The translations under genes were made by a program, and so were the position numbers. From a virus: a stretch of 64,000 nt of DNA. The DNA lies in the IMG/VR virus record IMGVR_UViG_3300023184_003849, positions 57,847 to 121,846 of that record, one strand, 5' to 3'. Positions 2,068-19,718 of this stretch are shown here, in pieces. The notes under the pieces are model-generated. The model was given only the letters and a program-made list of their open reading frames with translations, was not told where the DNA came from and did no database searches. Every line of letters begins with the position of its first letter. Positions within the stretch are counted from its first letter, which is position 1.

Positions 2068-3287
2068 CAATTGATCATAGAGACCCTGTGTCAGGTAGAC
2101 CCATGCCCAATGGCATTCCATTGGAGCAACATCATTCAATTGAACAAATGGATGGTTATAGGTTAGACTATCCTAGAATCATCTATTATCTGCATGAGTG
2201 CGGAATACCTATGCAGGTGGCAGCCACTGCCGATGCACCCTTAGGCGCCTGGTACCCAGTGGTACTAGGTTGGTTTGATTTTTCAGTAGACTATATAGGC
2301 AGGATAAGTCCTGCCGCATACACACGCATACAACAAAAACACATGTTGTTGGTGTTTACATATCACGAAGGCGATAATCCTGCCAAGATAAGAGCAAGAA
2401 TCAATCAACTGTGTGCTGACCATGCAATAGAACCTGACATGGTTTGGCTGATTAGTGGCAATAGTTCTGCAGATTCAATACAGGGATGCGTTTATTGGCC
2501 TGAACTGGAATTTATGTATTGGCGTACTGTAAATTTATCAGCAGGCGCCAAATATCATCTGCGGCCTAGATCACGTGCATTTACTGGACTGTGTAGAATA
2601 GACAAACTTTGGCGTAAGGTATTCATGAGCGAACTATGGGCAGATGGGTTACACAAGAATGGTTACTTCAGTTATACTCAGTATTTGCTAGGCGGCGAAG
2701 ACGATTATTTTAATTGTGCATTACGCAATAGTTATCTTGCTCATAAACAACATCAAGTTAATCAATTTATAGCAGCCGGACCATTTCATGCGGATGAACT
2801 AGATTTAGATGCACACAACAACTATGCCGTCAACATGACCAACCTTTATGAAGACAGTTACTTCAATATTGTGTTAGAAACCATGATTGATGTTGATGAT
2901 TCAGGCGGACAGTTTATAACAGAAAAAACATTCAAACCCATATTCAACAATCAATTTTTTATTGTGGTTAGTAGTAGTCACCACATGGCACACTTGCGTG
3001 AACTAGGGTACCAGACATTTGGGCGTGTGATAGATGAACACTATGATTCGATAGAAAACAATCAAGAAAGATTTGAGGCTGTGTTGGCGATGACAAAGAG
3101 TTTGTGCACCAAGCCTTTGTCAGAATTACACTCAATCTATCAACAACTTGAACCTGAGATTGTTCATAACTATCAAGTTTTTGTAGCAGGCATGCGACAC
3201 AGGCTTAAAGTAGTGGTTGATCGTATTAACTACAAACCTTTACACCATATAATTTTTCAAAACGATCAGCGTCTGCTCGATCATTGA
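2055..3287 (+). CDS. Glycosyltransferase-like protein (TEKxFKPI family), paralog 2
   Basis: 410 residues. It shares the C-terminal family block of the gene before it: FITEKTFKPIFNNQFFIVVS near residue 290, then GYQTFGRVIDEHYD. The start (MVCIAIDHRDPVSGRPMPNG) lies in the last codons of the upstream gene, so the two form a coupled pair. The N-terminal half is unlike that of paralog 1, as expected for different acceptors. The 3' end runs 62 bases into the 3' end of the convergent carbamoyltransferase gene. Transfer of a sugar from a nucleotide donor is inferred from weak resemblance to GT-B fucosyl/exostosin-type enzymes. Membership of the local paralog family is seen directly. Confidence 0.68.
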   Translation: MVCIAIDHRDPVSGRPMPNGIPLEQHHSIEQMDGYRLDYPRIIYYLHECGIPMQVAATADAPLGAWYPVVLGWFDFSVDYIGRISPAAYTRIQQKHMLLVFTYHEGDNPAKIRARINQLCADHAIEPDMVWLISGNSSADSIQGCVYWPELEFMYWRTVNLSAGAKYHLRPRSRAFTGLCRIDKLWRKVFMSELWADGLHKNGYFSYTQYLLGGEDDYFNCALRNSYLAHKQHQVNQFIAAGPFHADELDLDAHNNYAVNMTNLYEDSYFNIVLETMIDVDDSGGQFITEKTFKPIFNNQFFIVVSSSHHMAHLRELGYQTFGRVIDEHYDSIENNQERFEAVLAMTKSLCTKPLSELHSIYQQLEPEIVHNYQVFVAGMRHRLKVVVDRINYKPLHHIIFQNDQRLLDH

Positions 3288-4707
3288 CCATGGGTTCGCC
3301 GCGTATGTTTAGCGAAGTGTTCAGCAACATGGGACAGCCAGTCAACACGTACCACTTTTCAAGCAGTTGTCGGATTCCTGAACCGTCCTGCGCCACAGTT
3401 TGTACTCGGCTGGTGCCATCAACATGACATACAGCAGGAGTAAGGCTAGGCTGGCGACAACGAGCGACTGACTGCATATAAGGACTATGATGCCAACCGG
3501 CTGGCATATCAAAATAGTCATCAGCCACCTCAGCCAGTATGACCGGGGCAAAAGGTCTAAACTGTTGTCTGCGTTTGATTTCATTTACTTTCTCCTTGAT
3601 CTCGCGGCCTCTAGGGTCTGCAAGGAGGCTACGGTTTCCGAGTGCGCGGGGGCCGAACTCGGCACGTCCTGAGGCGACTCCCACAATTCGTTCAGTAAGA
3701 AGCCGATCCAAAAGGCCATTAACGGGATAAGGGCCAGGAATGTCATACCCCAAAAAAGCGTTTGTCCAGTTAATTCTATATCCAAGAGCCAAAGCGGCAG
3801 CACCAAGGCTACTACCAGCATCACCAGGGCAAGGCATAATCCAAATATTCTCAAAGTACTCTCCCAAAAAACGATTTGCAGTGCAGTTCAAAGCCACTCC
3901 ACCCATATATACCAAGTTTGCACTAAAATCTAATTTTCTAGCACGAATCATGACCTGACGTATAAGATCTTCTGCGACCAACTGTGCCGCTGCCGCAATA
4001 TTTTCTTCACTGGAATGCTGTAAAAATTCAGGGTCCATGCCTGTGTGAAAATTCTTTTTTAATTGTAAATTACGCTCGTCCTCAATCACGTGTTCACGCA
4101 TGTCTTGGTACCACGTGTTACGGCCAAAGGCAGCCATGCCCATGGTGATGTACTCTTCATCCATTGGATGCAGACCAATACGCTTAGTCACTGCACTGTA
4201 AAACAAACCAATTGAATGTGGATAAACTTGCCGCCATAATCTACGATACTGCGCACGGCCCGACTGATTGTATTCGGCACCCCATATACTTATAGTGTCC
4301 CATTCACCAATGGCGTCAACCACTACTACAGTGGCACGTTCAAACGGCGAAGTTTGAAAACCTGCGGCTGCATGGCTTAGATGATGATTGTAGTTTTTTA
4401 TTTTCTTATCACAAGTGACCAATCCAGGCAATTGTTTTTTTAATATTGATGTGACTGACAGTTTATCCCAGTCAATGTTTTGACCTGCATACAGTTGTCG
4501 CAGTTGTTTTGACCAAGGGCGCTCATAGTAGGCAATTGTGTCTATTTCTCGTCCGTATAAGTCTATTACTAATTCAGATGCAATTTCAGCATCGTTTTTT
4601 ATTTTACTATACCGTTCTGAATGCGCGGCAAATAAGATCTCACCATTGGGACTTATGACCGTGGCGGCTGCATCGTGAAAGCCTGCCGAAATACCCAGGA
4701 TATTCAT
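3226..4707 (-). CDS. NodU/CmcH/TobZ-family O-carbamoyltransferase
   Basis: 493 residues. The family transfers a carbamoyl group from carbamoyl phosphate, through carbamoyl-adenylate, to a hydroxyl of a sugar or related metabolite. Seen here are MNILGISAGFHDAAA at the start (ASKHA/Kae1-like fold), HHLSHA at residues 108-113 (metal-binding histidines), GGVALNCTAN, PGDAGSSLGAA, and the C-terminal YrdC-like part with EFGPRALGNRSLLADPR near residue 355 and RPFAPVI. The C-terminal NTSLNIRGEPMV motif is present. It is shorter than the roughly 550-600 residues usual for the family, mainly after that motif. The start codon overlaps the stop of the 33-residue gene upstream (ATGA). Its neighbours are radical SAM and glycosyltransferase-like genes, so a phage- or host-derived glycan is the likely acceptor. 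Confidence 0.88.
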   Translation of the reverse strand: MNILGISAGFHDAAATVISPNGEILFAAHSERYSKIKNDAEIASELVIDLYGREIDTIAYYERPWSKQLRQLYAGQNIDWDKLSVTSILKKQLPGLVTCDKKIKNYNHHLSHAAAGFQTSPFERATVVVVDAIGEWDTISIWGAEYNQSGRAQYRRLWRQVYPHSIGLFYSAVTKRIGLHPMDEEYITMGMAAFGRNTWYQDMREHVIEDERNLQLKKNFHTGMDPEFLQHSSEENIAAAAQLVAEDLIRQVMIRARKLDFSANLVYMGGVALNCTANRFLGEYFENIWIMPCPGDAGSSLGAAALALGYRINWTNAFLGYDIPGPYPVNGLLDRLLTERIVGVASGRAEFGPRALGNRSLLADPRGREIKEKVNEIKRRQQFRPFAPVILAEVADDYFDMPAGWHHSPYMQSVARCRQPSLTPAVCHVDGTSRVQTVAQDGSGIRQLLEKWYVLTGCPMLLNTSLNIRGEPMVNDRADADRFEKLYGVKVCS

Positions 4708-4805
4708 TTGTAGATAAATGGATCGCGTTTGCGGAGTTCTTTTAATTTTTTTCTATACCGTATTTCTAGTGTAATACGATTCCAAAGTCTTTGAATCCAA
4801 TTCAT
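4704..4805 (-). CDS. 33-residue basic conserved small protein
   Basis: A short frame from ATG 4805-4803 to TGA 4706-4704 codes for MNWIQRLWNRITLEIRY followed by a Lys/Arg-rich end finishing in KRDPFIYK. Both ends overlap neighbours by ATGA: its start lies in the stop of the 4802-5839 gene and its stop in the start of the carbamoyltransferase gene. That exact spacing continues the coupled operon and argues that it is translated. The sequence looks like an amphipathic basic helix with an aromatic N-terminus. The function is unknown; a peptide partner, membrane-binding or adaptor role is possible but untested. Confidence 0.6.
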   Translation of the reverse strand: MNWIQRLWNRITLEIRYRKKLKELRKRDPFIYK

Positions 4806-5839
4806 GTTAAATTCCTAATTTGAAGTATATCATAGTCTGGATCACTCCAGCGATAGTCATATGTAGCCCTGGTTGTGCCGGTACGCACTTTATACACATC
4901 CTGGTGCTGACTCAATTGCGAATATATTATTTGCCAGTCTTCTGTACCAAACGTCCTTTTGAGATCAACTTGCCCGATTTGAGGGTGGCCGATTGTAAGA
5001 CCTGGGTCATCTGGGTTGAATCCATTCCGTTCAAGCCACGTTCGAAATTCGGCCAACTGTCGGATTTGCCAGGAGTAAGCACCGGGATCACGGGCCCATT
5101 CAATATCAAAATCAGCAGCCGCTTGAGTCTGAGTACGTAATCCTGAGGTAACCAATTCTGAAATCCTTGAGTCCCTGCCCTCATCTTGAAATACCTCCCA
5201 ATGGTGCTTGCCCACTGCTTTATTTACACCTACATATACACCACCCAATTTTCTATTGATTGTTTCTATACCAAACAATTCTAAATCTGATTCTTCCAAC
5301 TCAAATCGTGGAGCATTAAGCCAGCACATGAGTTGACTAGGTCTACGCCATTCGGGTGCTGTTTGTGCCTTACGTATACTGAGTACCAGGCTTTCAAACT
5401 CGTGGCATAACAAATTCAATTGTCTAATGTGCCAGCGTGTGGAATCATCTGCTTGAGAATAATAAGGACTCATAGCCCCTGCTGTGCCTTGTAAATCTTC
5501 AAAATAACGATGTAGTTGATTAAGATGTTGGTGGTTGGTTCTGCCTTGACTGTCTATGCTGTTGGCAGGTGAGAAGAAATCTTGTATTTTATAATTTAAG
5601 TTGCTTGAATTTATAGCATGGATTGATCTATTGATTTGAGTACACAAATATTCTGGATTGCGAGCACTTTCGGCCCAGCCCAACCAACAGTAATTTTTTT
5701 CTAGGTGTAATTGTTGATCAATAATATTATTCAATGCCGCAAGCCATTTACGGCTGAGACTGTTGTCTTCAACATTTATGTATACCGTAAAAATTTGATT
5801 TTCGGCACTCCGTAGGTCTATTTCAATCAAATCAAGCAA
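4802..5839 (-). CDS. Conserved phage protein of unknown function in modification operon
   Basis: 345 residues, soluble by composition, with many Trp and His residues. Recognisable stretches are YVGVNKAVGKHHWEVFQDEG near residue 205, with a His-His pair, and GHPQIGQVDLKRTFG near residue 290. These look like conserved active-site loops, but I cannot assign a family. The His/Glu/Asp-rich loop could be a metal site (inference only). The gene overlaps the radical SAM gene upstream by 8 bases and the 33-residue gene downstream by ATGA, so it belongs to the same transcript and probably the same pathway. Confidence 0.75.
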   Translation of the reverse strand: MLDLIEIDLRSAENQIFTVYINVEDNSLSRKWLAALNNIIDQQLHLEKNYCWLGWAESARNPEYLCTQINRSIHAINSSNLNYKIQDFFSPANSIDSQGRTNHQHLNQLHRYFEDLQGTAGAMSPYYSQADDSTRWHIRQLNLLCHEFESLVLSIRKAQTAPEWRRPSQLMCWLNAPRFELEESDLELFGIETINRKLGGVYVGVNKAVGKHHWEVFQDEGRDSRISELVTSGLRTQTQAAADFDIEWARDPGAYSWQIRQLAEFRTWLERNGFNPDDPGLTIGHPQIGQVDLKRTFGTEDWQIIYSQLSQHQDVYKVRTGTTRATYDYRWSDPDYDILQIRNLT

Positions 5840-7121
5840 TTTTCATCCACCACTCTGCCACTTCAGGGCGTTGACTTAATATATCTGTCAAGGTCACTGA
5901 TTGTGTTCTTATTTGTTCTAGTTTGAGCACACGAGCCTTGCCTCGACGCAGTCCCTCCTGATATTGATCAGGCCACTGTTCCGCAAACGTGGGCCGGGTT
6001 TTTAATTGTAGCAGTACATCACGCATGGCACCTGCGGAGCGGCCTGCTAGTTCGTCAATCCAAGGGTCCAACAAATGCCTAGGCAGTGCCAAAGGACTCA
6101 AGATTATATCTGGGGAGAAACTGAATATGACCTTGGCCAACAGTTGTACCCCATACTTGTGTGCCAGGTTTTCCATTGCATCTGTTTCAAACATTCCAGG
6201 GAGAGTGAGGGTAAAATCAAGACGCATTTGTCTAGGGTGTTTGGCGTACTGTAAGCCGTGTTCAAAATTACTACAGAACTGTTCATAATTCAGTCCTGTA
6301 CGAATATATTCCCCGATTTTGTCTAATCCATCCAGACTAGCACATATTTGCCAATCTCGTACATGACTGAGGATATCGCCAAAAAGATCCAGGCCTCGAT
6401 AATTAATTCGACTCAAATTAGTATTGTATCGAGCATATAAACGAGGTCCATCTCCTAATTCCACGATTCGTTTCATGTAACGCCAGTGCTGTTCATACAT
6501 TAGCGGCTCTCCGCCAACCCAATATACCTCTTCAACACGGTGTCCTTCAACGGCGGCAGAAAACTCGGCTTCAACCTGATTCTCCTGAAAGTGTGCGATC
6601 TTGCCACGTATATCTGCTCGCATCCAATGATTTTTTGGATCGTGCCAATCAACCATGTCATGAGTTTTTTCTTCACTTTCCCAGGCGCTTGAAAGCATGT
6701 CTCCGCAGGTTCTGCATCGGAAATTGCATAGATTTGAAAACCTATAATCCCACGACACAGGTACCATAGTTGTAGAGCCATCCGCATTAGTGTTATTGTA
6801 AACTTCTTTGATCTTGTGTCCGAATAAATGATCGAAGTAGGTCCTATAGACATCGGTGTTGAGCAGTCGGTCATTGCATACCTCGCATTCTGGTAGTTTT
6901 TCCCCGGCCATCATTCTGCGCCTAACGCTTTTCATGTGTTCTGAATTCCAATGCTGTTCAAGTGTGATGGGAATGTATTGCCCTGTGCCCCGGGCTGTGT
7001 CTATATACTGCTCAAAGTTTTGCGCAGGTTCCCGAGATGCACAGCACATACGTCGTTCTGTTTGCGGACTTAAATATGTATGCACCCAGGGCGCTAGGCA
7101 GAGATTGTTAGGTTTCTGCAT
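5832..7121 (-). CDS. Radical SAM protein with N-terminal SPASM-like domain (copy 1)
   Basis: 429 residues. The radical SAM motif is C132, C136, C139 (CNFRCRTC), which binds the 4Fe-4S cluster that cleaves S-adenosylmethionine. VGGEPLMYE about 70 residues later is the SAM-binding GGE motif. Upstream of the core is a SPASM-like pattern: C8 in LCLAPW, C26 and C27, then C79/C82 in CEVC. Such a domain normally follows the core; here it precedes it. The family usually modifies peptides or small substrates through auxiliary Fe-S clusters. The C-terminus ends RPEVAEWWMKIA, a divergent form of the ending shared by the paralogs. It is a cytosolic enzyme. The substrate is unknown; glycosyltransferase-like and carbamoyltransferase neighbours suggest glycan or glycoprotein tailoring (inference). 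Confidence 0.85.
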   Translation of the reverse strand: MQKPNNLCLAPWVHTYLSPQTERRMCCASREPAQNFEQYIDTARGTGQYIPITLEQHWNSEHMKSVRRRMMAGEKLPECEVCNDRLLNTDVYRTYFDHLFGHKIKEVYNNTNADGSTTMVPVSWDYRFSNLCNFRCRTCGDMLSSAWESEEKTHDMVDWHDPKNHWMRADIRGKIAHFQENQVEAEFSAAVEGHRVEEVYWVGGEPLMYEQHWRYMKRIVELGDGPRLYARYNTNLSRINYRGLDLFGDILSHVRDWQICASLDGLDKIGEYIRTGLNYEQFCSNFEHGLQYAKHPRQMRLDFTLTLPGMFETDAMENLAHKYGVQLLAKVIFSFSPDIILSPLALPRHLLDPWIDELAGRSAGAMRDVLLQLKTRPTFAEQWPDQYQEGLRRGKARVLKLEQIRTQSVTLTDILSQRPEVAEWWMKIA

Positions 7122-8016
7122 ATTCTAACAATGGTTCTACAATTTCATTTATAATACGTTGTTTTACTAATTTTTGATCGAAAAAATGGTTGTGATTATG
7201 TGTCAATTTTTGAAGTGTAAGTATATCATAATGGTCTATCTGAACAGAGTCGATAACATCAAGTATCAATGATAAACGTTGATCAAAAGACTCAAGTTTA
7301 TCATAGGATTCATCAAACAAATTATCAAATGTTTCAAATCCTTGACTTTTTATTGTTTGCAACATTCCTGCGCTGCCTAAGACAACAAACGGATGATAAT
7401 AGGCACAAGGTTTATAAGTTTTTTCGGTTAGGAAACTGCAACGTTCCGGATTAATGCTTGATTCAATGACCAAACTCATCCAGGTGGTGTCATACCAATC
7501 TGGATTGAAAAAACGTTGATAGTTTGGATCATCGCAAGATACATCATCAGGAAGTCGTTTGTCTTTGTAACTCCATATGAAATTTTCTAGTCTTGTCCCT
7601 AGCCGATCAATTATAATGTCTCTTTCTGTCTTTGCACGATTTATTGTCATGAGAGACTTTTTTTTATAGTTTTTCTTAGGAATATAATTGTGATAGCCCA
7701 AAAATTGCCACCATAAACTTTCATTGTACCAAAACCATTGATTGTTTGTTAATTCATAATAATTATTTTTAAATTCTTTATCAGATTGTTCCCATAGATT
7801 GTCAATAACAACTTTATATCCTAAACTTTTTAAATTTTGACTATAACTGTCATTGGCATTACAATGCCATACCACAAAGAGTGTTGAATCAGCATGATAG
7901 AATTTGTCTGTATCAAACCATTCGATATCAAAGTATTGTTTCCAAAATTCTTCAAGATAACAACTGGTGAAACTTGAGAATTCATTTGGTCTCAGTATCA
8001 TTTTTATCTTAGACAT
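7108..8016 (-). CDS. Glycosyltransferase-like protein (TEKxFKPI family), paralog 3
   Basis: 302 residues, the shortest member of the family with the clear motif. FLTEKTYKPCAYYHPFVVLG lies near residue 195 and is followed by GFETFDNLFDESYDKLESFD. The N-terminal part is AT-rich and shortened compared with paralogs 1 and 2. It lies between two radical SAM genes and overlaps both by 8-14 bases, so each enzyme pair would be made together. The local AT content is higher than in the flanking radical SAM genes, consistent with separate acquisition. A glycosyltransfer role is inferred from the shared motif, not shown by a definitive catalytic signature. Confidence 0.7.
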   Translation of the reverse strand: MSKIKMILRPNEFSSFTSCYLEEFWKQYFDIEWFDTDKFYHADSTLFVVWHCNANDSYSQNLKSLGYKVVIDNLWEQSDKEFKNNYYELTNNQWFWYNESLWWQFLGYHNYIPKKNYKKKSLMTINRAKTERDIIIDRLGTRLENFIWSYKDKRLPDDVSCDDPNYQRFFNPDWYDTTWMSLVIESSINPERCSFLTEKTYKPCAYYHPFVVLGSAGMLQTIKSQGFETFDNLFDESYDKLESFDQRLSLILDVIDSVQIDHYDILTLQKLTHNHNHFFDQKLVKQRIINEIVEPLLEYAET

Positions 8017-9208
8017 AGTTTAATAATTTAGCCATTTCAGGTGCAACATTTGTGAAATCTTGATTGCGGCGTTGATCAATTTTTTGTATTTGGCTTAATG
8101 TTTCTTTTCCATCAGTTGACTTGCCACGCATCATAAAATCCACAATACCCTCAAAATCTTTTTGATAACCAGTGTGTGCATTGAGTAAATGTTCAGCAAT
8201 GGCTTGCTTGGTAGTATCGGGCAAGCACCCGATTGAGAAATACCAAGCATCGTGCATGATATTCCAGTACACAAAATCAAAACCCTGTACACTGATCCAG
8301 TGTGCCAGTTGATCAATATAACGCACATTGAAAATGTTTACTGTAGAGCAACATTGCAATTGAATGTTACTATACTGCTGGCGCATTTGACGAAACAGTT
8401 CAAGATTTCGTTGTACATCTGCCCATTTAGCACCTGTACGCTGATATTCAAATCTTTCACAGAGGTCATCAATTGAAAATGCAATCTCTACTGTTTTGAA
8501 ATGTTTCCAAATATGCTCTGCTTGTTCTGGCCATTGTGTGCCATTGGTGTTGTAGTGTATTTCTACTTGTGATGCAATACCACGGTCCACTATGCCTCGT
8601 AACATCGCAAAGTGTTCTTCAATCATAAATGGTTCGCCACCAGTAAATTCGATGTAACGAATATCATTTAACACCGAATCAATTTGATTCCAAAATTGTT
8701 TATTCTCTCTAGGCCAGCGCCCAGCCTTTAACATTTGATAGGGGAAACTTGTTTTACTGTGCTCTTCTACTGAAGTTGCGATTTCTTCCACAGCAAAACT
8801 ACTGCTAGACCAAGATCCACATATACGACATTTCAAGTTGCAGATGTTACCTAGTTTAAGATCCAAAAACATAAGTGGTTTAGCATCTTGAGTCCATCCT
8901 GATGTGATGCCCATGTGTTTGAGTCTATCTAGTGTATGCATACGCTTACTAGTGCGACCAGCATCCTCCTCTTCCCAGCATTTGCGGCAAGTGTGTGGCT
9001 GTTGACCTGCTAAAAATGCTTGTCGCAGTTGATACATGTATTCACTGTTTTGAATATCTTTAAAATCAGCAGACTTCAAGTTAAATTTAACACTATTACT
9101 ATCTACTATTTCATCGTCAGCAAGACAACACGGACGCACAGTACCTATAGGCGTCGCCTCTAGACTAACCCAGGGCAAAACACAAAATTTGTCAGACGGT
9201 AAATTCAT
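8009..9208 (-). CDS. Radical SAM protein with N-terminal SPASM-like domain (copy 2)
   Basis: 399 residues. The SPASM-like N-terminus is C9 in FCVLPW, C27/C28 after GTVRP, and C74/C77 (CRKC). The core is C123, C127, C130 (CNLKCRIC), followed by FTGGEPFMIEEH as the SAM-binding GGE motif. The ending DQRRNQDFTNVAPEMAKLL is the clearest case of a C-terminal motif shared by copies 2, 4 and 5. All three SAM-cluster cysteines are intact, so the enzyme should be active. It overlaps the next radical SAM gene by ATGA and the paralog-3 glycosyltransferase-like gene by 8 bases. The substrate is not evident. Confidence 0.86.
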   Translation of the reverse strand: MNLPSDKFCVLPWVSLEATPIGTVRPCCLADDEIVDSNSVKFNLKSADFKDIQNSEYMYQLRQAFLAGQQPHTCRKCWEEEDAGRTSKRMHTLDRLKHMGITSGWTQDAKPLMFLDLKLGNICNLKCRICGSWSSSSFAVEEIATSVEEHSKTSFPYQMLKAGRWPRENKQFWNQIDSVLNDIRYIEFTGGEPFMIEEHFAMLRGIVDRGIASQVEIHYNTNGTQWPEQAEHIWKHFKTVEIAFSIDDLCERFEYQRTGAKWADVQRNLELFRQMRQQYSNIQLQCCSTVNIFNVRYIDQLAHWISVQGFDFVYWNIMHDAWYFSIGCLPDTTKQAIAEHLLNAHTGYQKDFEGIVDFMMRGKSTDGKETLSQIQKIDQRRNQDFTNVAPEMAKLLNYV

Positions 9209-10467
9209 TTTAATGCTACCAATTCAGGCAATGCATGTTGCCAGGATTCATTTCTAATTTCATCTAACCCGTGTGTTCGGCGCCAGAATGTATCAATCAA
9301 CTGGGTGTTGTCTGTGGCATTCATAAAGGCAATAGCAGATTCAAATCCTTGTGTGGCACGGCCCAATGAGTCTCTATCACTCATCCAGGACAGATGCTTG
9401 CGATACTTTTCTTCTAATCTTTCTTTGTACTCTGCAGGGGCAATATCTATTCTATAATATGCAGGATCTTGTAAAATATTTACATTTAAATCTTGCGGTT
9501 GAATTAGTCCAGCGGCACACCACTCCTTGTGAAATTCTGGCAAGTGCCAAGCATTTAATATGCTTAGTGTGGGTGAGATATAAAAGTCTACCTGGGGACA
9601 CATTGCAATCATTCGGTGACGATTTTGCACAACATCATACCAATTGGTACCTTTGCGTATGTATTCGGCAGGATGACCCATGCCATCTAAACTGGCGCCC
9701 ACTGCCACTGAGTCAAACTGTTGCCAGTATTCAAATACGCTACGGCCTTTCAAGTCTGTGTGCGTGAAGTTGGTATTGTATATTAAACGCACGTCAAAAC
9801 GTTTTCTTTTTACAAGTTCTTCAAGAATGTTATAGTGTTCTTCCATCAACAAGGGTTCACCACCAGCAAAGTATATCTGCTCCACGTAATCCAAATGGGG
9901 CTCCAGTTGCGTCCACATGTCTGTCTCTGTGCGTCCTGCATAGTTTAATACACTATTGCGATCTTTCCATCCTGGCCCGGCCAGTTTTGCCTGGTCTTGA
10001 TACCACTGACTACTAAAGATATGCCCACACGATCTGCATTTTAAGTTACATAAGTTACTGAATCGAATATCCCAATAAGTCATTTCAAAAGGGTTCTCAT
10101 CCAATTTTTTTATCTGATGTCCGTGATGTTTGTTGGCTGATCTGCGTCCTGAAAAGAATCCCGATTCTTCTTGCTCATAACAGCGTGTGCAGGCTGCGTG
10201 TGGAGTTTCGCTCAGCATATCTGCACGTAGACGTTTCATAGGCTCACCAGTCCATATTTCTTCAAGCGTATGAGTTCTACAATTGCCCACCACACCGGGC
10301 TTCATTTCGGCATGGCAACAGGGATATGCTTCACCTGTAGGGTAAGCGTGTAAATGGATCCAGGGATAGATACAAAAGGTCTTTGAATCTTCTAATAAGA
10401 AACGCTCACGTTCTGTTAGTTCTGTGGCACGTACTAGATCTGTGGAGTTATACCGGTATTGCGTCAT
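9205..10467 (-). CDS. Radical SAM protein with N-terminal SPASM-like domain (copy 3)
   Basis: 420 residues and the best textbook SPASM pattern of the five: C32 in FCIYPWIHLHAYPTGEAYPC, C50/C51, C63 after VVGN, THTLEEIWTGE, then C93/C96 (CTRC). The radical SAM core follows with C140, C144, C147 (CNLKCRSC) and FAGGEPLLMEEH. In known SPASM enzymes such as anaerobic sulfatase-maturating enzymes this domain lies after the core, so the order here is reversed. An extra 30 residues precede the SPASM part. The gene is coupled to copy 2 by ATGA and overlaps copy 4 by 20 bases. It probably works in the same modification pathway. Confidence 0.87.
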   Translation of the reverse strand: MTQYRYNSTDLVRATELTERERFLLEDSKTFCIYPWIHLHAYPTGEAYPCCHAEMKPGVVGNCRTHTLEEIWTGEPMKRLRADMLSETPHAACTRCYEQEESGFFSGRRSANKHHGHQIKKLDENPFEMTYWDIRFSNLCNLKCRSCGHIFSSQWYQDQAKLAGPGWKDRNSVLNYAGRTETDMWTQLEPHLDYVEQIYFAGGEPLLMEEHYNILEELVKRKRFDVRLIYNTNFTHTDLKGRSVFEYWQQFDSVAVGASLDGMGHPAEYIRKGTNWYDVVQNRHRMIAMCPQVDFYISPTLSILNAWHLPEFHKEWCAAGLIQPQDLNVNILQDPAYYRIDIAPAEYKERLEEKYRKHLSWMSDRDSLGRATQGFESAIAFMNATDNTQLIDTFWRRTHGLDEIRNESWQHALPELVALK

Positions 10468-11785
10468 ACCATTCTTTTAGTTCGGGGAAGGCAGCGCCAA
10501 AGTCTTTTGATCTACGTTGATCATACTGTGTGTAGAACTGTCGGAAATCATTTAACAGTCGGGGCATTTCAAATGCTTCAGAATGAGGAGTTTTGACCAC
10601 ATCCAAATAATCAATCAAGCGTTGTGTGTGATTGACTTCGTGTTCGTGAATGATATCACTGTCAACCCAGTGCTCTAGCCATGTCTCCAAGCGTTGTCTA
10701 TATACTGTGCGTTGGGCATCAGGTAGCACCAGTGGCGATTGGAAACTAGGAAATCGTAGAATGTTCAATGTAAACGAAACCGCATCTCGGCCATATTCTA
10801 GTTTCCAATTCATTATGCACTCTAACAATTGATCCAAGGTAGTCAAACATAATGCATTAATGGTACACATCACATGTATGCCACGGAACTGCCCTGAGTC
10901 TAGTAGTCTTTCTACGTTGTTGGCCCAGTCGTCCCAGACCAGTCCGTCACGGATATACTCTGCTTGAGTGGAGATCGCCTCATTTGACGTGTATAAATCG
11001 ATTACCATTCCTTGTGTGCTGTCAAGCAATCGGTCAATGTCAACGTCGGTACCCAGGTTACTGTTGATAGCCAAGCGTGTGCTACTCTTGCCCTGATTAT
11101 CTCGAAACCAATCAATGAGTCGCCAGGTGTGGGCGGACATGAGGGGCTCTCCTCCGGTGATTCTAAGTTCTGTAAGAGTGCGATGTAGATCTGACTCCCA
11201 CCATGCAAAAAATGCGCTAATGTAGGCATTATCCTCCGTGATCTTAAACAACTGAGAGTTGTCATGAGTGTGAGTAAAGTGGTTACGACCATCACTGACC
11301 AGGTTGCGATAGGGTCCGTTATTGCGTATGTCTCGAACCCAAGTTGTGCTAAATGCAGGGTTACAGTAACTACAAGCAAACTGACAAGTACGATCGAAAG
11401 CAATTTCCAAGGTACGGAGATTGACGTCTTCAGTGGGTAGTGTATTTCTAGCCTCATGCAATGCCTCTATAGGGTATATCTTACTCTTATACACACGATC
11501 ACTCACAGCATCGCGACCCATGTCTTCAATTTTCCAACAGTATTCACAGCCTGCGGGACGTTCTCCGATGATCATCTTGCGACGATCTTCTTTCTTTTGA
11601 TCAGTGTTGTGCAACAGCCTAGGGTTGGCGCGAACTCGATCAATGTCCACCAAATGGGCTGGAGGGTGGTGACAACTTGTGGTCATACCAGAGCCTAACC
11701 AAATAGTCGCATTGTACCACTTGGCTGCACAAAAACTTTCACTCAACGTGTCTAATACTGTGTGTTTGAATTCTAAATCGTTCAC
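10448..11785 (-). CDS. Radical SAM protein with N-terminal SPASM-like domain (copy 4)
   Basis: 445 residues. The core motif is C134, C138, C141 (CQFACSYC), with RITGGEPLMSAHTW as the GGE motif. The N-terminal cysteine domain is a variant: C19 in FCAAKW, C38 in TSCHHPP, and C80/C83 (CEYC). It has a single Cys where copies 1-3 have Cys-Cys. Copies 4 and 5 share this variant and form a subgroup. The C-terminus YDQRRSKDFGAAFPELKEW carries the shared ending. The gene overlaps the upstream glycosyltransferase-like gene by ATGA. It is a cytosolic Fe-S enzyme with unknown substrate. Confidence 0.86.
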   Translation of the reverse strand: MNDLEFKHTVLDTLSESFCAAKWYNATIWLGSGMTTSCHHPPAHLVDIDRVRANPRLLHNTDQKKEDRRKMIIGERPAGCEYCWKIEDMGRDAVSDRVYKSKIYPIEALHEARNTLPTEDVNLRTLEIAFDRTCQFACSYCNPAFSTTWVRDIRNNGPYRNLVSDGRNHFTHTHDNSQLFKITEDNAYISAFFAWWESDLHRTLTELRITGGEPLMSAHTWRLIDWFRDNQGKSSTRLAINSNLGTDVDIDRLLDSTQGMVIDLYTSNEAISTQAEYIRDGLVWDDWANNVERLLDSGQFRGIHVMCTINALCLTTLDQLLECIMNWKLEYGRDAVSFTLNILRFPSFQSPLVLPDAQRTVYRQRLETWLEHWVDSDIIHEHEVNHTQRLIDYLDVVKTPHSEAFEMPRLLNDFRQFYTQYDQRRSKDFGAAFPELKEWYDAIPV

Positions 11786-12891
11786 AAATTGCTTTGGATA
11801 AAATTAACAAAGCGGTCAGGAAATTCTTGAAAGATTCGGATTCCTTCTGCCGCCAAGTGTTGTTGATTATACTTAGTTACGGCCCGACTTGCAACCAGAA
11901 ATTCCTCCAGATTGCTGTCACACAGGTCTTGTACCACTTGTGCTATCCTGTCTAACCGATCTTGATTGTTGGCTATTAGATCAAATGATTCGTCAATCAA
12001 GTGACCGAATGTCTGGAATCCTGCATTATGTAAGTCGCGATAAAAACCGCAATTGGCCACTGCCACAAACGGATGGCCCATGGCTATGGGTTTGTAGATC
12101 TTTTCACTGCGCAGGCTGTAAGGATAATCAAACACAGTTTCTGACACCAAACTGAAATAGGTATCTATATAAGGTTCAGCACGGATGTACACGTCACCCC
12201 AGGTGTTGTCAAACAATTCGTGTTTGACGAAAGCATGTTGATACCGATCTTTCTGCCCTGCGCGGAATTGTTCTACTTCGTATTCTGTGGGTAATAATCG
12301 TATCTCGCTGGGTCTTTCAAATAGGTCTGTTGAATAAGTGTGATGGTATACAGGAGTGGTGTCCAGATTAGTCCAGAGTGCGTGATCCAACAGGCCAGCA
12401 TCACGCATGCGCTCTATCATGTATTTTCTATGTGGTCTTGTGCGCCCATTTAGAAACAAGAACTTGTAGGGTTTGTGAAACTTACTGTAGATTTCATCTG
12501 CGCGGGTGCCTTGTTCACGATTGCTTTCATAACAGGTTGCTCGATAAGCATAATGGTCGTAGACCATGCAGTTGAGTTCAGGCTCCATGTCTCCACATCC
12601 TACCAACAGCAATCGCTTTTGTTGAATCAAATCTATCAATCCCAGACGTTGGCATTGCAGTTTGAGTGTTTGCGAACCTTCTGAAGGATTGGCCAATACA
12701 GGCAAACAAATGTTGCTAAGTTGTTTTACCCGATCTGCATATCGGTTCACAGTTTGTCTGGCCAGTACAACAACGTCATTGGGTCTGGGTTCGTACTGTT
12801 CAAAATCCCAAAATGTATCATCCACTAGATGTTGTATTTCCGCATATATCTCACAGGAAGTGTCGCATACCAGACTGTGGTTACCTAGCAT
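11782..12891 (-). CDS. Glycosyltransferase-like protein (TEKxFKPI family), paralog 4
   Basis: The frame is open upstream to 13068, but that would overlap the radical SAM gene by 188 bases. The ATG at 12891 (MLGNHSLVCD) gives an 11-base overlap, matches the operon pattern and follows a purine-rich GGTGGGAAG stretch, so I chose it (369 residues). The family block is SLRSEKIYKPIAMGHPFVAV near residue 285, with Ser replacing Thr, then GFQTFGHLIDESFDLIANNQ. Conserved strands upstream include YKFLFLNGRTRPHRKYMIE, a likely GT-B hinge region. It sits between radical SAM copies 5 and 4. The enzymatic role is inferred from the family. Confidence 0.7.
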   Translation of the reverse strand: MLGNHSLVCDTSCEIYAEIQHLVDDTFWDFEQYEPRPNDVVVLARQTVNRYADRVKQLSNICLPVLANPSEGSQTLKLQCQRLGLIDLIQQKRLLLVGCGDMEPELNCMVYDHYAYRATCYESNREQGTRADEIYSKFHKPYKFLFLNGRTRPHRKYMIERMRDAGLLDHALWTNLDTTPVYHHTYSTDLFERPSEIRLLPTEYEVEQFRAGQKDRYQHAFVKHELFDNTWGDVYIRAEPYIDTYFSLVSETVFDYPYSLRSEKIYKPIAMGHPFVAVANCGFYRDLHNAGFQTFGHLIDESFDLIANNQDRLDRIAQVVQDLCDSNLEEFLVASRAVTKYNQQHLAAEGIRIFQEFPDRFVNFIQSNL

Positions 12892-14284
12892 GATACTGAC
12901 ATTCTTCCCACCAAGATCGCATTTCAGGAAATGTTTGTAAAAAGTCTGTGCCGCGTCGACGGTCATGTTCTGCAAAGAATCTGTAAAAGTCTGCACGTGC
13001 CTCGGAATGATCCTGATTTTGAGCACTACGCATCCAGGCAATGTCTCGGTCCAAGCGGGCAACTTCATAGTCCTTGAATCCTTGATGCGGATATCTGGGA
13101 TCTTCCAGGTGTTCTAACATAAATTGTTTGACTTCTTCTAACTTGGCAATATAACTTGCAGGCAAGATTTGCAAACTCTGCCATGTGGGTGTGCGTAGCA
13201 CAGGAGTATCAAACCATATGCGTTGATAGGTTCTACTGTGTGTTCTTCTTAAAAACAATATCCAACCCAGCAAAGATTTTAATCCTGTAACTGAAAGATT
13301 GTTCATGGTAATGATAAATGTAAGACTGTTATAAGCAGGAACTTCTGTCAAATAACGATCAACGTTGTGGAACATTCGCATGTAGTCAAGTCCGTGGCGT
13401 ATGTATTCAGCCTGCGCGGGTATTCCTGAATCCACGCTTACATATTGCATGAAGTGTTCTATACGACCATCGCAGATTTGTTTAACTGAATCTAAGTAGC
13501 GTTTGAACAGTTCAGGCTCTACTGAGAAGTTTGATGTTACATTTAAATGCAGTTTTTTACTAGGATTGGCCATGATATAATCAAATACTCGATAGGTGTT
13601 CCGGTCCATGAGTGGCTCACCGCCAGTCATTCTAAAATGCTCTAGTTCGGGATACAGTGTCGGCCACCACTGCCAAAAGGCATCGACGTAGGGATTAGAC
13701 TCTCGGGCAGGTATTGGTCGTCGAGAAGCAGTAAAGTGTGCCGGATCATTGTGAGGAACAAGGGTGGGAAAAGCACCGTGTCGTTGTACTTCATCAGCCC
13801 ATGAACTGCTAAATTGAGGACTACAATAACTACATTTAAGATTGCAAGCATTGTTGAAGTTGACTTCCACGTAGGATGGAATAATATCATCTTCATCTCC
13901 GGTTGAGTTCTTTATCCGTTCAAAGTCTACCGCGGCCCAAGGCTCGCCCGAACGATAGTGTCTGTCCGATAGTTTGCCTTGATCTTCCATGTTCCAGCAA
14001 TATGAACATTCTGTAGGACGCTCCTGCTGAAGCATTATTTTCCGCTGTGCTTTTTTGTGCCAAGTGTTGTGCAAAGCCGCAGGGTTGGTTTTTATTGCTT
14101 CTGGATCTATCATGTGTAGCGGAGGATGATAACAGGAGTTGTTGAGTCCAGTGGGCAAATGTAAAGAGACTTGCTTCCATTTGGCCAGGCACAGTGCTGG
14201 ACCCAGTTGATCTTTCATTTGTTCTGCTTGATGCATAAATTCTGATTTGGAATTTTTGTCAATGTTGTTTTTTTCAAGCATCAA
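12881..14284 (-). CDS. Radical SAM protein with N-terminal SPASM-like domain (copy 5)
   Basis: 467 residues. The N-terminal cysteine domain is C32 in LCLAKW, C51 in NNSCYHPP, then C93/C96 (CSYC). The core is C147, C151, C154 (CNLKCSYC) with RMTGGEPLMDRNTY. The ending EHDRRRGTDFLQTFPEMRSW is the shared C-terminal motif. It is the closest relative of copy 4 in the window. It overlaps the upstream paralog-5 glycosyltransferase-like gene by 11 bases and the downstream paralog 4 by 11 bases, so the cluster alternates the two enzyme classes. The substrate is not evident. Confidence 0.86.
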   Translation of the reverse strand: MMLEKNNIDKNSKSEFMHQAEQMKDQLGPALCLAKWKQVSLHLPTGLNNSCYHPPLHMIDPEAIKTNPAALHNTWHKKAQRKIMLQQERPTECSYCWNMEDQGKLSDRHYRSGEPWAAVDFERIKNSTGDEDDIIPSYVEVNFNNACNLKCSYCSPQFSSSWADEVQRHGAFPTLVPHNDPAHFTASRRPIPARESNPYVDAFWQWWPTLYPELEHFRMTGGEPLMDRNTYRVFDYIMANPSKKLHLNVTSNFSVEPELFKRYLDSVKQICDGRIEHFMQYVSVDSGIPAQAEYIRHGLDYMRMFHNVDRYLTEVPAYNSLTFIITMNNLSVTGLKSLLGWILFLRRTHSRTYQRIWFDTPVLRTPTWQSLQILPASYIAKLEEVKQFMLEHLEDPRYPHQGFKDYEVARLDRDIAWMRSAQNQDHSEARADFYRFFAEHDRRRGTDFLQTFPEMRSWWEECQYHAR

Positions 14285-15257
14285 AAACTCTTTCTATATC
14301 TTGCTTGGTTAAATCTAGTAATAAGTCTCTGTTATGTCTCAATGTGGGCAACATATCTTGATACATTGACTGTAATTCCCCCAAGGACAACTTGCTCAAA
14401 TGTTCTAAATTGTCAAAAATGCAAGACACTTGACAACCGTCTGGGTCTTCGCTGTAGCCTTCATCCCACCACTGATGAAATGTTTTGAATCCTATCCGTC
14501 TGAAATTTTTAATCCAATTGCTCGGTCCTTGTATCATAATAGGGGTGAGCGCCAGAGTAGGCCGCCATACTTTTTCGTCTATATAAAAGGTTGTTCCTGA
14601 AAAAAATGTAAGGTTGACTATTTCAAGAAAAAACTTTGGATAATATTTGAGTAAGTTTATGTTTGTTGGTTGAAGTATAGGAAAAGTTGTAATCTTATCC
14701 AATTCAATGGGGGCATGTTTGATATGATTGTATGCAGTATCTAGCATAGATTCTGTGACCCCAATGAACATGAGATCTTCAAGACCTATGTATTCTCTAT
14801 GGTACTCCTCAGTTACTTTACAGTGATAACTTTGTAGTGTTTTGTCTGAATATTGAGATTTTAATAAACTACTGGTTTGCAGTCGATATTTGTTACTATG
14901 ACCTATAAAATTTGCAAAATGTTTGAAATCCGAATCAAACTTTTTTTCAAAATTTGGAAATTGTTTACTGTTAATAATTGATCTTTCTAGTTCCCAAAAA
15001 TTGAAATCTTTATGAATATGATATTTTGTATGTGATTCCAACATATTGGAGGTGTAGATATGAATACAACCATGATCAAAATTGAATTTTTTACAAATCT
15101 TATCAATCAGGCAATATAATCCCACATGTTCACAACAAGGCCCTTCTGACATGGTGTTGATATGTGCCTGTCCAGTGGTTTGTATCTCATACACTACGTC
15201 TAAAATAAATTGATCTGTGGCCCTGATTTTGCCATCGTTGGTTAATAATGATATCAT
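14274..15257 (-). CDS. Glycosyltransferase-like protein (TEKxFKPI family), divergent paralog 5
   Basis: 327 residues. The family block is altered: FYIDEKVWRPTLALTPIMIQ near residue 225 in place of TEKxFKPI, then IGFKTFHQWWDEGYSEDPDG. The spacing and the Gly-Phe-x-Thr-Phe turn are kept, so it belongs to the same family. The N-terminus contains a Cys-Cys pair (EGPCCEHVGLYC), not seen in the other paralogs. The sequence is AT-rich. It is coupled by ATGA to the aminotransferase-like gene upstream. A sugar-transfer role is inferred. Confidence 0.62.
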   Translation of the reverse strand: MISLLTNDGKIRATDQFILDVVYEIQTTGQAHINTMSEGPCCEHVGLYCLIDKICKKFNFDHGCIHIYTSNMLESHTKYHIHKDFNFWELERSIINSKQFPNFEKKFDSDFKHFANFIGHSNKYRLQTSSLLKSQYSDKTLQSYHCKVTEEYHREYIGLEDLMFIGVTESMLDTAYNHIKHAPIELDKITTFPILQPTNINLLKYYPKFFLEIVNLTFFSGTTFYIDEKVWRPTLALTPIMIQGPSNWIKNFRRIGFKTFHQWWDEGYSEDPDGCQVSCIFDNLEHLSKLSLGELQSMYQDMLPTLRHNRDLLLDLTKQDIERVFDA

Positions 15258-15850
15258 TTAAATACTGGCATTTCTGGCAAGTAGGGATACTCATCCTGGG
15301 TCCATACCCTTGCTTTTGTGGCACATGCTTGGGGTAATTTTTCAAGTCCCATTTTTGCTGTGTCAATGGTCATGTAGTAATGATATCCAATTGTGTCAAT
15401 GTTTTGTTCTTTCCAGGGTTGAATTGGAATGCGACCATCATGAGTCATTTTTTTGAGAACAATGTAATCATTGTAATTGTCTAGCAATATTGCGCCCCCG
15501 CGTATGAGATTTAGATGTTTCTTATATTGAAAACTCAAACACATAAAAGTATTGGACACATACCCATCTTGTTGCCAGTATGTGGCTGCATCTATAATTT
15601 TGGTATTCCCTATATAGTAATACCCAGCCCAATTTGTATCAACGAACGACCAACTTAATCCTAATTTTTCAAAAGTAAACGGAATAGAAATGTATGTTCT
15701 AGCAGGGCATGTAACGTTGTTATCTTTTGTGTAACGCAGAGCAAGTTCAATTGCATGTGTACAAGAATCTGTGGCAACAGCATAAGGCGCCCCAAAAAAC
15801 TGTGACAATTGTAATTCAAATTCTTCAACCATATTCATGCATATTCCCAA
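15254..15850 (-). CDS. Miniature DegT/DnrJ/EryC1-type aminotransferase-like protein
   Basis: 198 residues, about half the usual 370-400. The N-terminus FELQLSQFFGAPYAVATDSC followed by THAIELAL matches the entry strand and SGTxAL loop of PLP-dependent sugar aminotransferases. Near residue 105, SFQYKKHLNLIRGGAILL corresponds to the segment that carries the PLP-binding lysine (K110 or K111) and GGA. IIDAATYW at 85-92 takes the place of the EDAAHA motif with Asp87. The C-terminal small domain is missing. Family members make amino sugars such as perosamine. Whether this short form is active, pairs with another chain, or is a decaying remnant is unclear. Starts at M1, M5 or M7 are all possible. 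Confidence 0.68.
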   Translation of the reverse strand: MGICMNMVEEFELQLSQFFGAPYAVATDSCTHAIELALRYTKDNNVTCPARTYISIPFTFEKLGLSWSFVDTNWAGYYYIGNTKIIDAATYWQQDGYVSNTFMCLSFQYKKHLNLIRGGAILLDNYNDYIVLKKMTHDGRIPIQPWKEQNIDTIGYHYYMTIDTAKMGLEKLPQACATKARVWTQDEYPYLPEMPVFK

Positions 15851-16584
15851 TTTAGAGTGTCATTCAAAGGCCAGTGTAAACCTCTCCATGTTTGTAATAC
15901 GTTAAACGCTTCTTTTTTATCTATATGTACGTCAAAATAATTTTGTAATTTACCAACCACACTAGTATCATTACCTTCTATTAGCCATTCTAATGGAATA
16001 ATATGGTTTTGATCTATATTTTTGACAATATGATTGCGTCGATTTTCAACTATGCATTTTAAATTTTTTATATTTTCTTTACACCATGCGCCTAATCCGT
16101 AAGTTTTTATAAAATTAGTTTTTTGTTCTTCAATATCAGTTTCAAATGTAAAATTATGCATGATTTCTACGCCTTTTTTTTCACAGTATGCTCTAATTTG
16201 CCATTCTAACCCAAAATCAGTGATTGGCATAACAATAAGGCTAGGCATCTTTCTCAGAAAGGAATAAAAATTATCCAGATCATAAACAAAACTGTGATTG
16301 ATAAAAACAATCGGTTTGTCTGCTGGACGAACGTTTTTCTCATATTGTTCCCAGTCAAGTTCGTGACTCAGATCGATTCCATAATATTCTTTGTAATTCC
16401 CTATTTTACTCTCTAAAAAAATCCATTCCTGTTTATTTGATTTCAATCTTTCTGGATATTGCTTTAAAATTTTTTCAAGTCTTGGTTCTGCAAATGGCCA
16501 ATAAACATCATTACTTAATAGAATGATATTTTTTACTAGATTTGATGCGGCTCCTATATCTCCGCAAACTAAAAAATTTACCAT
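15835..16584 (-). CDS. Protein of unknown function in glycan cluster
   Basis: 249 residues, soluble, rich in Trp, Asn and Tyr. The N-terminus MVNFLVCGDIGAASNLVKNI has a Gly-rich loop after a hydrophobic strand, as in nucleotide-binding folds, but it lacks a full P-loop Lys-Thr/Ser. Further on, IVFINHSFVYDLDNFYSFL and MPSLIVMPITDFGLEWQIRAY look like core strands. A distant sulfotransferase-like or nucleotide-binding fold is possible but not supported by a complete motif. It overlaps both neighbours (16 and 7 bases) in the leftward operon. Confidence 0.7.
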   Translation of the reverse strand: MVNFLVCGDIGAASNLVKNIILLSNDVYWPFAEPRLEKILKQYPERLKSNKQEWIFLESKIGNYKEYYGIDLSHELDWEQYEKNVRPADKPIVFINHSFVYDLDNFYSFLRKMPSLIVMPITDFGLEWQIRAYCEKKGVEIMHNFTFETDIEEQKTNFIKTYGLGAWCKENIKNLKCIVENRRNHIVKNIDQNHIIPLEWLIEGNDTSVVGKLQNYFDVHIDKKEAFNVLQTWRGLHWPLNDTLNWEYA

Positions 16585-17504
16585 CCTTCCTGGCCTCTAA
16601 TCACATCTATCTCTCTAACCATGACACCCTGATTGTGCCAGTTGCTACGATAGTGATGCTTGAAGAATCTGCTGGCCTCTGCTGTGAGCATGTGCATGGG
16701 CAGATCCAATTGTGTAGCCAAGTCATCTGCCAGTCGGTTGGCTATGATTTCAGGTTGATCGTTTCTCACAGTTTCAAACAATTCTGCCAAGGCTGTAAAG
16801 TTTTGTACCTGTAAGTAATCCCAGTTTGTTAGCATGGTCATGTAAGTGCCTTGACGTGCACCAGCAATTGACCAGTATCCATAGTCTACATCACCGCCCA
16901 CATTGTGCCAGATTGTGAGATGATCTAAATTGCGTTGATGCACACGATCACGAAACTCTGCTACACTGGGTCTTGCCCCTCGATTCAAACACATCTTGAC
17001 GCCTTCACGGAATCCGGCACGCCAAGCATGAAAAGCCGATCCATTGGGATATGTTATACTATAACAATCGTTCATGGCCCAGTATAGCGGATCAAAACAA
17101 AACTCTATCTGTGTTTCTGTTGCACCATCTGTATTTTCATGTGTGCGCATGTTTTTTACATGTGTTCGGGTCCACGATGAGAGGCCACCATTGCCATACA
17201 TCAATCCATTGACATGATTACGTGCTCGCCATCTAAACACAGCCTGCTCATAATCACTAGTAGGAAAATCCAGTGTTTGATTAAAAAATGCCGGATCGGG
17301 TAAGTTGTCGCCATCAATGAGAATAAATCTTTCTGTATCACTTGCATCAGCGGCTGCTTTGTGTGCCGCGTCAGATCCGTGTACGCCATCAACTCGTCGG
17401 GCCCAAGGAACCATATTTTTGATCCGGATCCAAAATTCTTCTTTTTGTGGTTCGTCATATGATAGGTAAATACAGTCTAAATCTGCTATGTCAATCTTGC
17501 TCAT
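16578..17504 (-). CDS. Putative GT-A-type glycosyltransferase
   Basis: 308 residues. RFILIDGDNLPDPAFF near residue 80 is a hydrophobic strand followed by Asp-Gly-Asp, as in the DxD metal and nucleotide-sugar site of GT-A glycosyltransferases. The N-terminus (DLDCIYLSYDEP, VPWARRVDGVHGSDAAHKAA) matches a Rossmann-like donor-binding start, and the SDAAHKAA segment precedes the DxD at normal spacing. Donor and acceptor are unknown. The gene overlaps its neighbours by 7 and 14 bases. The fold is more convincing than in the TEKxFKPI family. Confidence 0.72.
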   Translation of the reverse strand: MSKIDIADLDCIYLSYDEPQKEEFWIRIKNMVPWARRVDGVHGSDAAHKAAADASDTERFILIDGDNLPDPAFFNQTLDFPTSDYEQAVFRWRARNHVNGLMYGNGGLSSWTRTHVKNMRTHENTDGATETQIEFCFDPLYWAMNDCYSITYPNGSAFHAWRAGFREGVKMCLNRGARPSVAEFRDRVHQRNLDHLTIWHNVGGDVDYGYWSIAGARQGTYMTMLTNWDYLQVQNFTALAELFETVRNDQPEIIANRLADDLATQLDLPMHMLTAEASRFFKHHYRSNWHNQGVMVREIDVIRGQEGW

Positions 17505-17832
17505 GTAGTTTTAACTTCCATCGTTGGTGTTCTTCTTGTGCGCTCACAACAACAGCAACATCAGTAGGGTGGCATGGTGTTCCAGTGTCACTAGGTACCA
17601 ATTTTGGCGGTACTGGTCGCTTGCGTGGTTTTAACACGCCATCGACTACACGCACTTGCAGGTCTCTTAATGCAAACTGTTCTGGAGTAACGTCGATGTA
17701 CTTACCGGGCTGATCTTCGTGGCTATAAAACAATGGCAGTCCTGAATCATCATAGTAAAGTCTTAGATAAACAGGCTTGATTTCAGGCCATTTGATGTTT
17801 TTCCAAAAGTCTAAAAATTCTTCGTCATTCAC
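17491..17832 (-). CDS. Small protein of unknown function
   Basis: 113 residues, charged and Pro-rich. VYLRLYYDDSGLPLFYSHED near residue 20 and GKYIDVTPEQFALRDLQVRVV suggest a small beta-rich domain. The tail from about residue 65 is Pro/Lys-rich and probably disordered. No known motif is present. It lies between two glycosyltransferase-like genes, overlapping them by 14 and 8 bases. In aquatic T4-like phages similar short proteins sit in tail or structural regions, but I cannot tell whether this one is a virion protein. Confidence 0.65.
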   Translation of the reverse strand: MNDEEFLDFWKNIKWPEIKPVYLRLYYDDSGLPLFYSHEDQPGKYIDVTPEQFALRDLQVRVVDGVLKPRKRPVPPKLVPSDTGTPCHPTDVAVVVSAQEEHQRWKLKLHEQD

Positions 17833-19657: not shown

Positions 19658-19667
19658 TGTACAATTA

Positions 19668-19703
19668 TAAAAGAAAAAAGGGCAAAAGTCTACCTTTTGC
19701 CCT
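19668..19703 (-). terminator. Intrinsic terminator closing the leftward tail block
   Basis: A 10-bp perfect stem (19679-19688 with 19694-19703) with a 5-base loop is followed, on the minus strand, by TTTTTTCTTTT (19678-19668). It lies 16 bases after the stop of the tail fibre-like gene at 19719. This is the clearest intrinsic terminator in the window. It separates virion genes from the modification cluster, although both are on the same strand. Confidence 0.88.
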
Positions 19704-19718
19704 GTTTGAGTTTGCCAA

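Follow-up and report, generated by a model that had tools for sequence, protein, structure and literature searches.

Do the five radical S-adenosylmethionine (SAM) enzymes encoded within one phage operon serve a common end, and what is the set of cysteines that precedes the catalytic core in each of them? The question is raised by a 64,000-nucleotide stretch of viral DNA (positions 57,847 to 121,846 of IMG/VR record IMGVR_UViG_3300023184_003849; "the window"), in which open reading frames (ORFs) here called R1–R5 occupy positions 5832–14284. An initial annotation made from the letters alone had listed these five genes, placed a SPASM-like domain ahead of each core and suggested an uncharacterised phage modification system. 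All five ORFs are present, on the minus strand, and the system does look uncharacterised. The source is a virus record of 121.8 kb, and the phage is T4-like by its T4-type baseplate genes, recognised in profile searches (T4_baseplate PF12322, 1.6e-15; baseplate wedge PHROG 10646). The whole 121.8-kb record holds more than the five genes of the operon: seven N_Twi_rSAM proteins above cut-off and 12 radical SAM matches.

R1–R5 are five distinct orthologous groups

R1–R5 all score above the curated cut-off of NF033640, N_Twi_rSAM (170 bits), with nearly the whole model covered.

5832..7121, minus strand: R1, N_Twi_rSAM, 429 amino acids (aa); NF033640 283 bits
8009..9208, minus strand: R2, N_Twi_rSAM, 399 aa; NF033640 340 bits; Radical_SAM 6.6e-10, SPASM 5.5e-7
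9205..10467, minus strand: R3, N_Twi_rSAM, 420 aa; NF033640 396 bits; SPASM 2.4e-12
10448..11785, minus strand: R4, N_Twi_rSAM, 445 aa, 'CHHPP' subgroup; NF033640 283 bits
12881..14284, minus strand: R5, N_Twi_rSAM, 467 aa counted from TTG; NF033640 315 bits; likely start, from the sequence, the ATG at 14281

Five members of one family in one operon might be mere recent tandem duplicates with redundant functions. Identity of R1, R2, R4 and R5 to R3 is just 18–27%, however, and for each R gene separate orthologues exist in phages and in bacteria. In a tree built by a quick search with midpoint rooting and Shimodaira–Hasegawa-like approximate likelihood ratio test (SH-aLRT) supports, the R1, R2, R4 and R5 clades each mix phage and Bdellovibrionota proteins with support of 99–100 (94 for R3; 100 for the R1 clade with its Bacteriovoracaceae members). 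Recent tandem duplication was rejected since the tree groups copies by gene, not by genome, and redundancy of this kind is hardly credible: R1–R5 are five distinct orthologous groups and not the expansion of one family. R4 and R5 split from the other groups with 100% SH-aLRT support, in line with the two subgroups originally proposed. A single alignment of all R groups was too divergent to serve as the query for a collection scan.

The auxiliary domain is an N-terminal Twitch domain

Each of R1–R5 carries four N-terminal cysteines (C-x18-C ... CxxC) followed by the CxxxCxxC core. This order, first seen in the five window proteins, was confirmed there and in 299/299 distinct phage R1–R5 sequences, 294 of which have exactly 18 residues between cysteines 1 and 2; as a control, the spacing arises in 280 of 20,000 composition-preserving shuffles of the N-terminal parts. 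The four N-terminal cysteines and the CxxxCxxC triad are the only (nearly) invariant cysteines of the alignment. The Pfam SPASM profile PF13186 matches over its whole length to residues 32–97 of R3 (E 2.4e-12) and 9–78 of R2 (5.5e-7), falls below threshold in R1 (0.006) and, searched directly, finds no match in R4 or R5. Profile comparison nonetheless aligns all five N-terminal domains with one another (E 4.8e-42 to 2.4e-5, against 0.3–0.7 for shuffled controls).

6873..7100, minus strand: Twitch domain of R1, residues 8–83; PF13186 sub-threshold, profile alignment to R2 2E-12
8975..9184, minus strand: Twitch domain of R2, residues 9–78; PF13186
10177..10374, minus strand: Twitch domain of R3, residues 32–97, ligand cysteines 32, 51, 93 and 96; PF13186 profile 1–67, conserved columns
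11537..11731, minus strand: Twitch domain of R4, Cys19 to Cys83; invariant cysteines, profile alignment to R2 1.7E-8
13997..14191, minus strand: Twitch domain of R5, Cys32 to Cys96; profile alignment to R2 6.3E-10

That R4 and R5 lack a direct SPASM match could be taken to mean that the N-terminal cysteines bind zinc or are only structural, in a domain unrelated to SPASM/Twitch, and R5 does have a weak zinc-finger match (0.0052, below cut-off), though at residues 150–169, which belong to the core. A zinc finger was rejected because this sole match is both sub-threshold and outside the N-terminal domain. The whole-profile SPASM matches in R2 and R3, the profile links across all five proteins, the naming of NF033640 as a twitch family and the four-ligand spacing in every one of the 299 sequences make the zinc or structural interpretation very improbable. 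The domain-level homology check that the initial annotation had called for thus returned a SPASM/Twitch relation and no zinc-domain match in the N-terminal part.

The first half of the published SPASM motif, CX9-15GX4C-gap-CX2C, is the Twitch set, which holds one cluster and is fully ligated in BtrN (PMC6231123). The spacing in R1–R5 agrees with this half, except that the Gly once described before the second cysteine site of all copies is absent from R1 (SPQTERRMCC). A full SPASM domain has a second auxiliary cysteine set and a C-terminal position; R1–R5 have four auxiliary cysteines, at the N terminus. Because there are four ligands, the auxiliary domain is a Twitch domain and not a seven-cysteine SPASM domain, and the term SPASM-like holds for relatedness, not for a full SPASM. 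The division between 'CC' and single-Cys sites likewise marks genuine subgroups, yet the conserved ligand of the 'CC' group is the second Cys, and therefore both subgroups have four ligands. These patterns predict two clusters per R enzyme: the [4Fe-4S] cluster that cleaves SAM, held by the core, and an auxiliary Fe-S cluster, fully ligated, in the N-terminal domain.

An AlphaFold2 model of R3 (predicted local distance difference test, pLDDT, 85.6; predicted template modelling score, pTM, 0.85) has full-length matches among viral models (template modelling, TM, scores of about 0.6–0.9), including KVP40 Q6WHP4. Against the PDB it matches SPASM/Twitch enzymes (CteB, anSME, SkfB and BlsE) mainly via the core, which is the behaviour expected of a permuted protein. 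In SkfB a strand of the C-terminal Twitch domain packs against strand beta-1 of the core (PMC6231123), which would make a circular permutation geometrically plausible.

The five genes form the invariant core of a phage module

In a first set of 80 related viral loci we counted orthologues at 50% identity or above; a second count covered the best 80 of at least 598 viral stretches from a further scan, seeded with the R4 of a phage-like contig that had been assigned to a Pelagibacter metagenome-assembled genome. Both samples were chosen through likeness to R3 or R4, so the counts hold for this phage group and do not extend to phages in general; most loci are metagenomic, with genes in fetched loci called mechanically. 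In the first set R1 occurs in 78/80 loci, R2 and R3 in 80/80 each, R4 in 78/80 and R5 in 77/80. All five occur together in 75/80 loci of the first set and 66/80 of the second. The carriers are T4-like phages of lake and ocean, and the order of the R genes is near-constant among them; in the second scan one lineage has R1 and R2 swapped, and GTb and g345 are mostly absent.

In the window, positions 3226–20714 of the minus strand form a single, densely packed series of genes, most of which overlap, in the order fib1, g102, GTf, GTe, g113, GTd, (g249, DegT, GTc), R5, GTb, R4, R3, R2, (GTa), R1, g345, carbamoyltransferase, with variable genes in brackets and GT standing for glycosyltransferase-like. 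The five radical SAM genes had been described as alternating with glycosyltransferase-like genes; R2, R3 and R4 are in fact contiguous, and the label of these neighbours has no significant profile support. The invariant core across loci is GTf-GTe-GTd-R5-R4-R3-(R1,R2)-carbamoyltransferase, adjoining fibre-like genes. Where two counts are given below, they refer to the first set and the second scan.

3226..4707, minus strand: carbamoyltransferase (NodU/CmcH type), conserved end of the core; PF16861 2.6e-49, PF02543 1.7e-36; 69/80 and 59/80 loci
4802..5839, minus strand: g345, conserved protein between R1 and the carbamoyltransferase; 71/80 loci (first set)
7108..8016, minus strand: GTa, variable, putative GT-like protein of the 'EKxxKP' family; shared domain, no Pfam match
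11782..13068, minus strand: GTb, putative GT-like protein of the 'EKxxKP' family; likely start ATG at 12891
14274..15257, minus strand: GTc, variable, putative 'EKxxKP' family; shared domain
15254..15850, minus strand: DegT-type aminotransferase, short form, variable cassette; PF01041 2.2e-14
15835..16584, minus strand: g249, variable cassette; no profile matches
16578..17504, minus strand: GTd, the most conserved partner, putative GT-A-like protein with DGD motif; 74/80 and 75/80 loci
17491..17832, minus strand: g113, small conserved protein; 70/80 loci
17825..18559, minus strand: GTe, putative GT-A-like protein with DxD-type motif; 70/80 loci
18543..19352, minus strand: GTf, putative GT-A-like protein with DxD-type motif; 67/80 loci
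19349..19657, minus strand: g102, small conserved protein; 58/80 loci
19719..20714, minus strand: fib1, probable tail-fibre-like structural protein, adjoins the operon; 55/80 and 71/80 loci; no PHROG match
20727..21950, minus strand: fib2, virion structural or fibre-like protein; PHROG 14394, virion structural

The two gaps of the phage loci hold 181 variable ORFs, which fall into 78 clusters and include epimerase/GDP-mannose dehydratase, DegT, AMP-binding, methyltransferase, hexapeptide transferase and GDSL families. The g345 protein gave a confident structure model (pLDDT 83.8), and a fold search of the PDB with it returned nothing better than E 0.6. Among annotated phages, window positions 1–25000 have no DNA match, and protein matches to R2 and R3 are confined to Vibrio phages and one marine single-cell record.

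Some accessory N_Twi paralogues (in loci L046, L051, L061, L070, L012, L081 and L068) carry an N-terminal motif of about 50 aa, 'DY..AG..WPsYddyl.G', doubled in L070 and L012 and seen in no other protein of the searched loci. A relation of this extension to the fib1 N terminus was considered and dropped as not significant (hhalign probability 4.6%).

Elsewhere in the window, positions 22755–35222 encode a virion structural protein of 4155 aa (PHROG 10938, 1007 bits), and a second radical SAM cluster lies on the plus strand at 51493–56256. Its genes at 51493–52449 and 53050–54147 encode core-first radical SAM proteins with Twitch-like cysteines after the core (by eye, meaning here and below an annotation from reading the sequence); thus both domain orders seem to be present in one phage. 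Also in the cluster are genes for a short-chain dehydrogenase and for a further radical SAM protein, which gives a weak B12-binding match. A small protein with a GIY-YIG-like start (by eye), possibly a homing-type endonuclease, follows at 56317–56745.

Cellular relatives

A scan of cellular genomes yielded 78 loci, many of which consist of one R3-like gene by itself, in Bacteroidota and further phyla. In the Bacteriovoracaceae genome UBA6144 (L099), from a bacterium of predatory type, all five R types occur in a chromosomal eight-gene cluster within 12 kb, ordered R4, R1, R2-like, R3, R2, R5, R4, R5-like and adjoining rplU, rpmA and obgE (by eye); the GT-like genes, carbamoyltransferase and g345 of the phage are all absent from it. 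R4/R5-type proteins are found in 72 of 291 Bdellovibrionota genomes (E <= 1e-60), and the Bdellovibrionota orthologues of R4 share 43–52% identity with it.

Homologues of phage partner genes also occur beside R genes in hand-picked Bdellovibrionota clusters, given here as examples and not as a measure of enrichment. A GTd homologue (31%, 5e-36) lies directly upstream of an R5-type gene in L206, and a g345 homologue (29%, 6e-30) overlaps one in L215. R4 is clustered with a PqqD-like gene, a DegT-like gene (by eye) and a carbamoyltransferase in L216, and lies near PqqD and GT1 genes in L197 and, by similarity and by eye, in L198. An R4 orthologue adjoins a PqqD-domain protein (PF05402, 3.9e-9) in G087, close or weaker PqqD-like homologues are found near R4 in G060 and G173, and in L196 (genome G076) the R4 orthologue sits inside a LanB/LanC gene cluster; a PqqD-like match was present in 4 of the 32 clusters scanned. 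GT1 genes lie near Bdellovibrionota copies, as do ABC-2 exporters, GT2 and Glf-like genes (by eye).

A protein of about 305–320 aa with a nucleotidyltransferase-like 'SDiDLT' motif (by eye) is repeatedly found beside R4/R5-type genes in Bdellovibrionota (L197, L198, L200 and L217–L220). In Paenibacillus sp. (L130), an N_Twi gene lies amid acyl carrier protein (ACP)-, ketosynthase-, ketoreductase- and acyl-ligase-like genes (by eye).

Proposed function

The co-occurrence of five non-redundant enzymes in phages and in a bacterium indicates a shared pathway or substrate, and a shared pathway is well supported. The carbamoyltransferase, DegT and cassette genes point to a glycan, and the PqqD and LanB/LanC genes near bacterial R4 point to a peptide; both sets of clues would be consistent with a glycopeptide. 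For the substrate, chemistry and destination of the product we infer the following. Encoded in the tail-fibre-adjacent operon together with GTd, GTe, GTf and the carbamoyltransferase, R1–R5 would act jointly, whether each supplies a step of a single pathway or all work on a common substrate. Their radical steps (oxidation, epimerisation, deoxygenation or cross-linking) would build an invariant scaffold that the variable cassette genes would then decorate, and the product would probably alter the surface of virion fibres or of the infected cell. That the shared substrate is of this kind, most likely a surface glycan or glycopeptide later decorated by the variable cassettes, has in our judgement an even chance of being correct.

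Several observations weigh against it. GTa–GTf have no significant match among Pfam, PHROGs or PDB profiles, although the GT-like genes of the operon do contain DxD-type motifs. The N_Twi copies of KVP40 are mostly distant from annotated glycosyltransferases, many cellular R3-like genes are solitary, and the open-licence literature that we searched reports a reaction for no member of the N_Twi_rSAM family. Finally, the position of R4 orthologues beside PqqD and with LanB/LanC favours a peptide substrate.

This last point leads to an alternative in which the target of R1–R5 is a ribosomal peptide, or else a protein of the virion (the neighbouring fibre proteins, for example), altered in the manner of ribosomally synthesized and post-translationally modified peptides, with the GT-like enzymes glycosylating the same protein. 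SPASM/Twitch enzymes frequently target peptides or proteins (PMC6231123), the bacterial R4 neighbourhoods (G087; more weakly G060 and G173; the LanB/LanC cluster) are of the corresponding kind, and the phage operon adjoins fibre genes. Profile searches of the phage operon, however, recognised no RRE/PqqD gene or RRE domain, no precursor-peptide gene was recognised in its tight packing, which leaves little room for one, and the accessory-enzyme extension could not be linked to fib1. We consider this alternative rather unlikely, if one to be taken seriously. That R1–R5 instead make or alter a small molecule (a nucleotide, cofactor or polyketide-like compound) appears improbable: the likeness of the cores to MoaA, QueE and viperin that would suggest it is weak, with scores far under the cut-offs, and while the Paenibacillus neighbourhood and the AMP-binding enzymes of some variable cassettes would fit such a product, the tail-fibre location and cassette content suit a surface product better.

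Comparison with known systems

The placement of a Twitch domain before the core, whose novelty was implied at first, is not itself new. NF033640 has this order and matches all five proteins (283–396 bits), and KVP40-type Vibrio phage proteins stand in GenBank as 'moaA/nifB/pqqE family'. In the material found, NF033640 is named but has no operon, pathway or function attached; the open-licence literature yielded no paper naming it and none on an N-terminal SPASM domain. The KVP40-type proteins share with R3 a full-length model match, but they are very divergent (related K566 proteins, 22–25% identity) and their operon order differs. BtrN, MoaA, SkfB, anSME, PqqE and CteB share with R1–R5 both the core and the four cysteines that make up the first half of the SPASM motif, but carry the auxiliary domain behind the core. 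We found no enzyme with the auxiliary cluster ahead of the core that has a reported reaction or a matching full-length solved structure.

A parallel in genomic setting is the host recognition cluster of pelagimyophages, a hypervariable tail-fibre region with glycosyltransferases and 'radical SAM' cassettes, likewise in T4-like aquatic phages (PMC7029224). There the radical SAM genes are variable cassettes, whereas here five orthologues form the invariant core, and no radical SAM genes were reported for the freshwater genomes of the pelagimyophage group (PMC7029224). The five-gene system appears new.

Taken at its broadest, the surface glycan or glycopeptide proposal is that Bdellovibrionota and T4-like phages of aquatic habitats have in common a conserved multi-step radical pathway, run by five radical SAM enzymes of permuted domain order, whose product is a glycan or glycopeptide not known before, placed on phage fibres or host surfaces and decorated by genes that can be exchanged; we advance this tentatively, with somewhat less than even confidence. 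Five such enzymes in a conserved phage module would amount to an unusually rich radical-chemistry pathway for a virus. The module would reveal the products of the hypervariable tail-fibre islands of aquatic phages and would make the function of the N_Twi subfamily as a whole open to test; its recurrence in Bdellovibrionota means that these enzymes can also be studied in cellular relatives.

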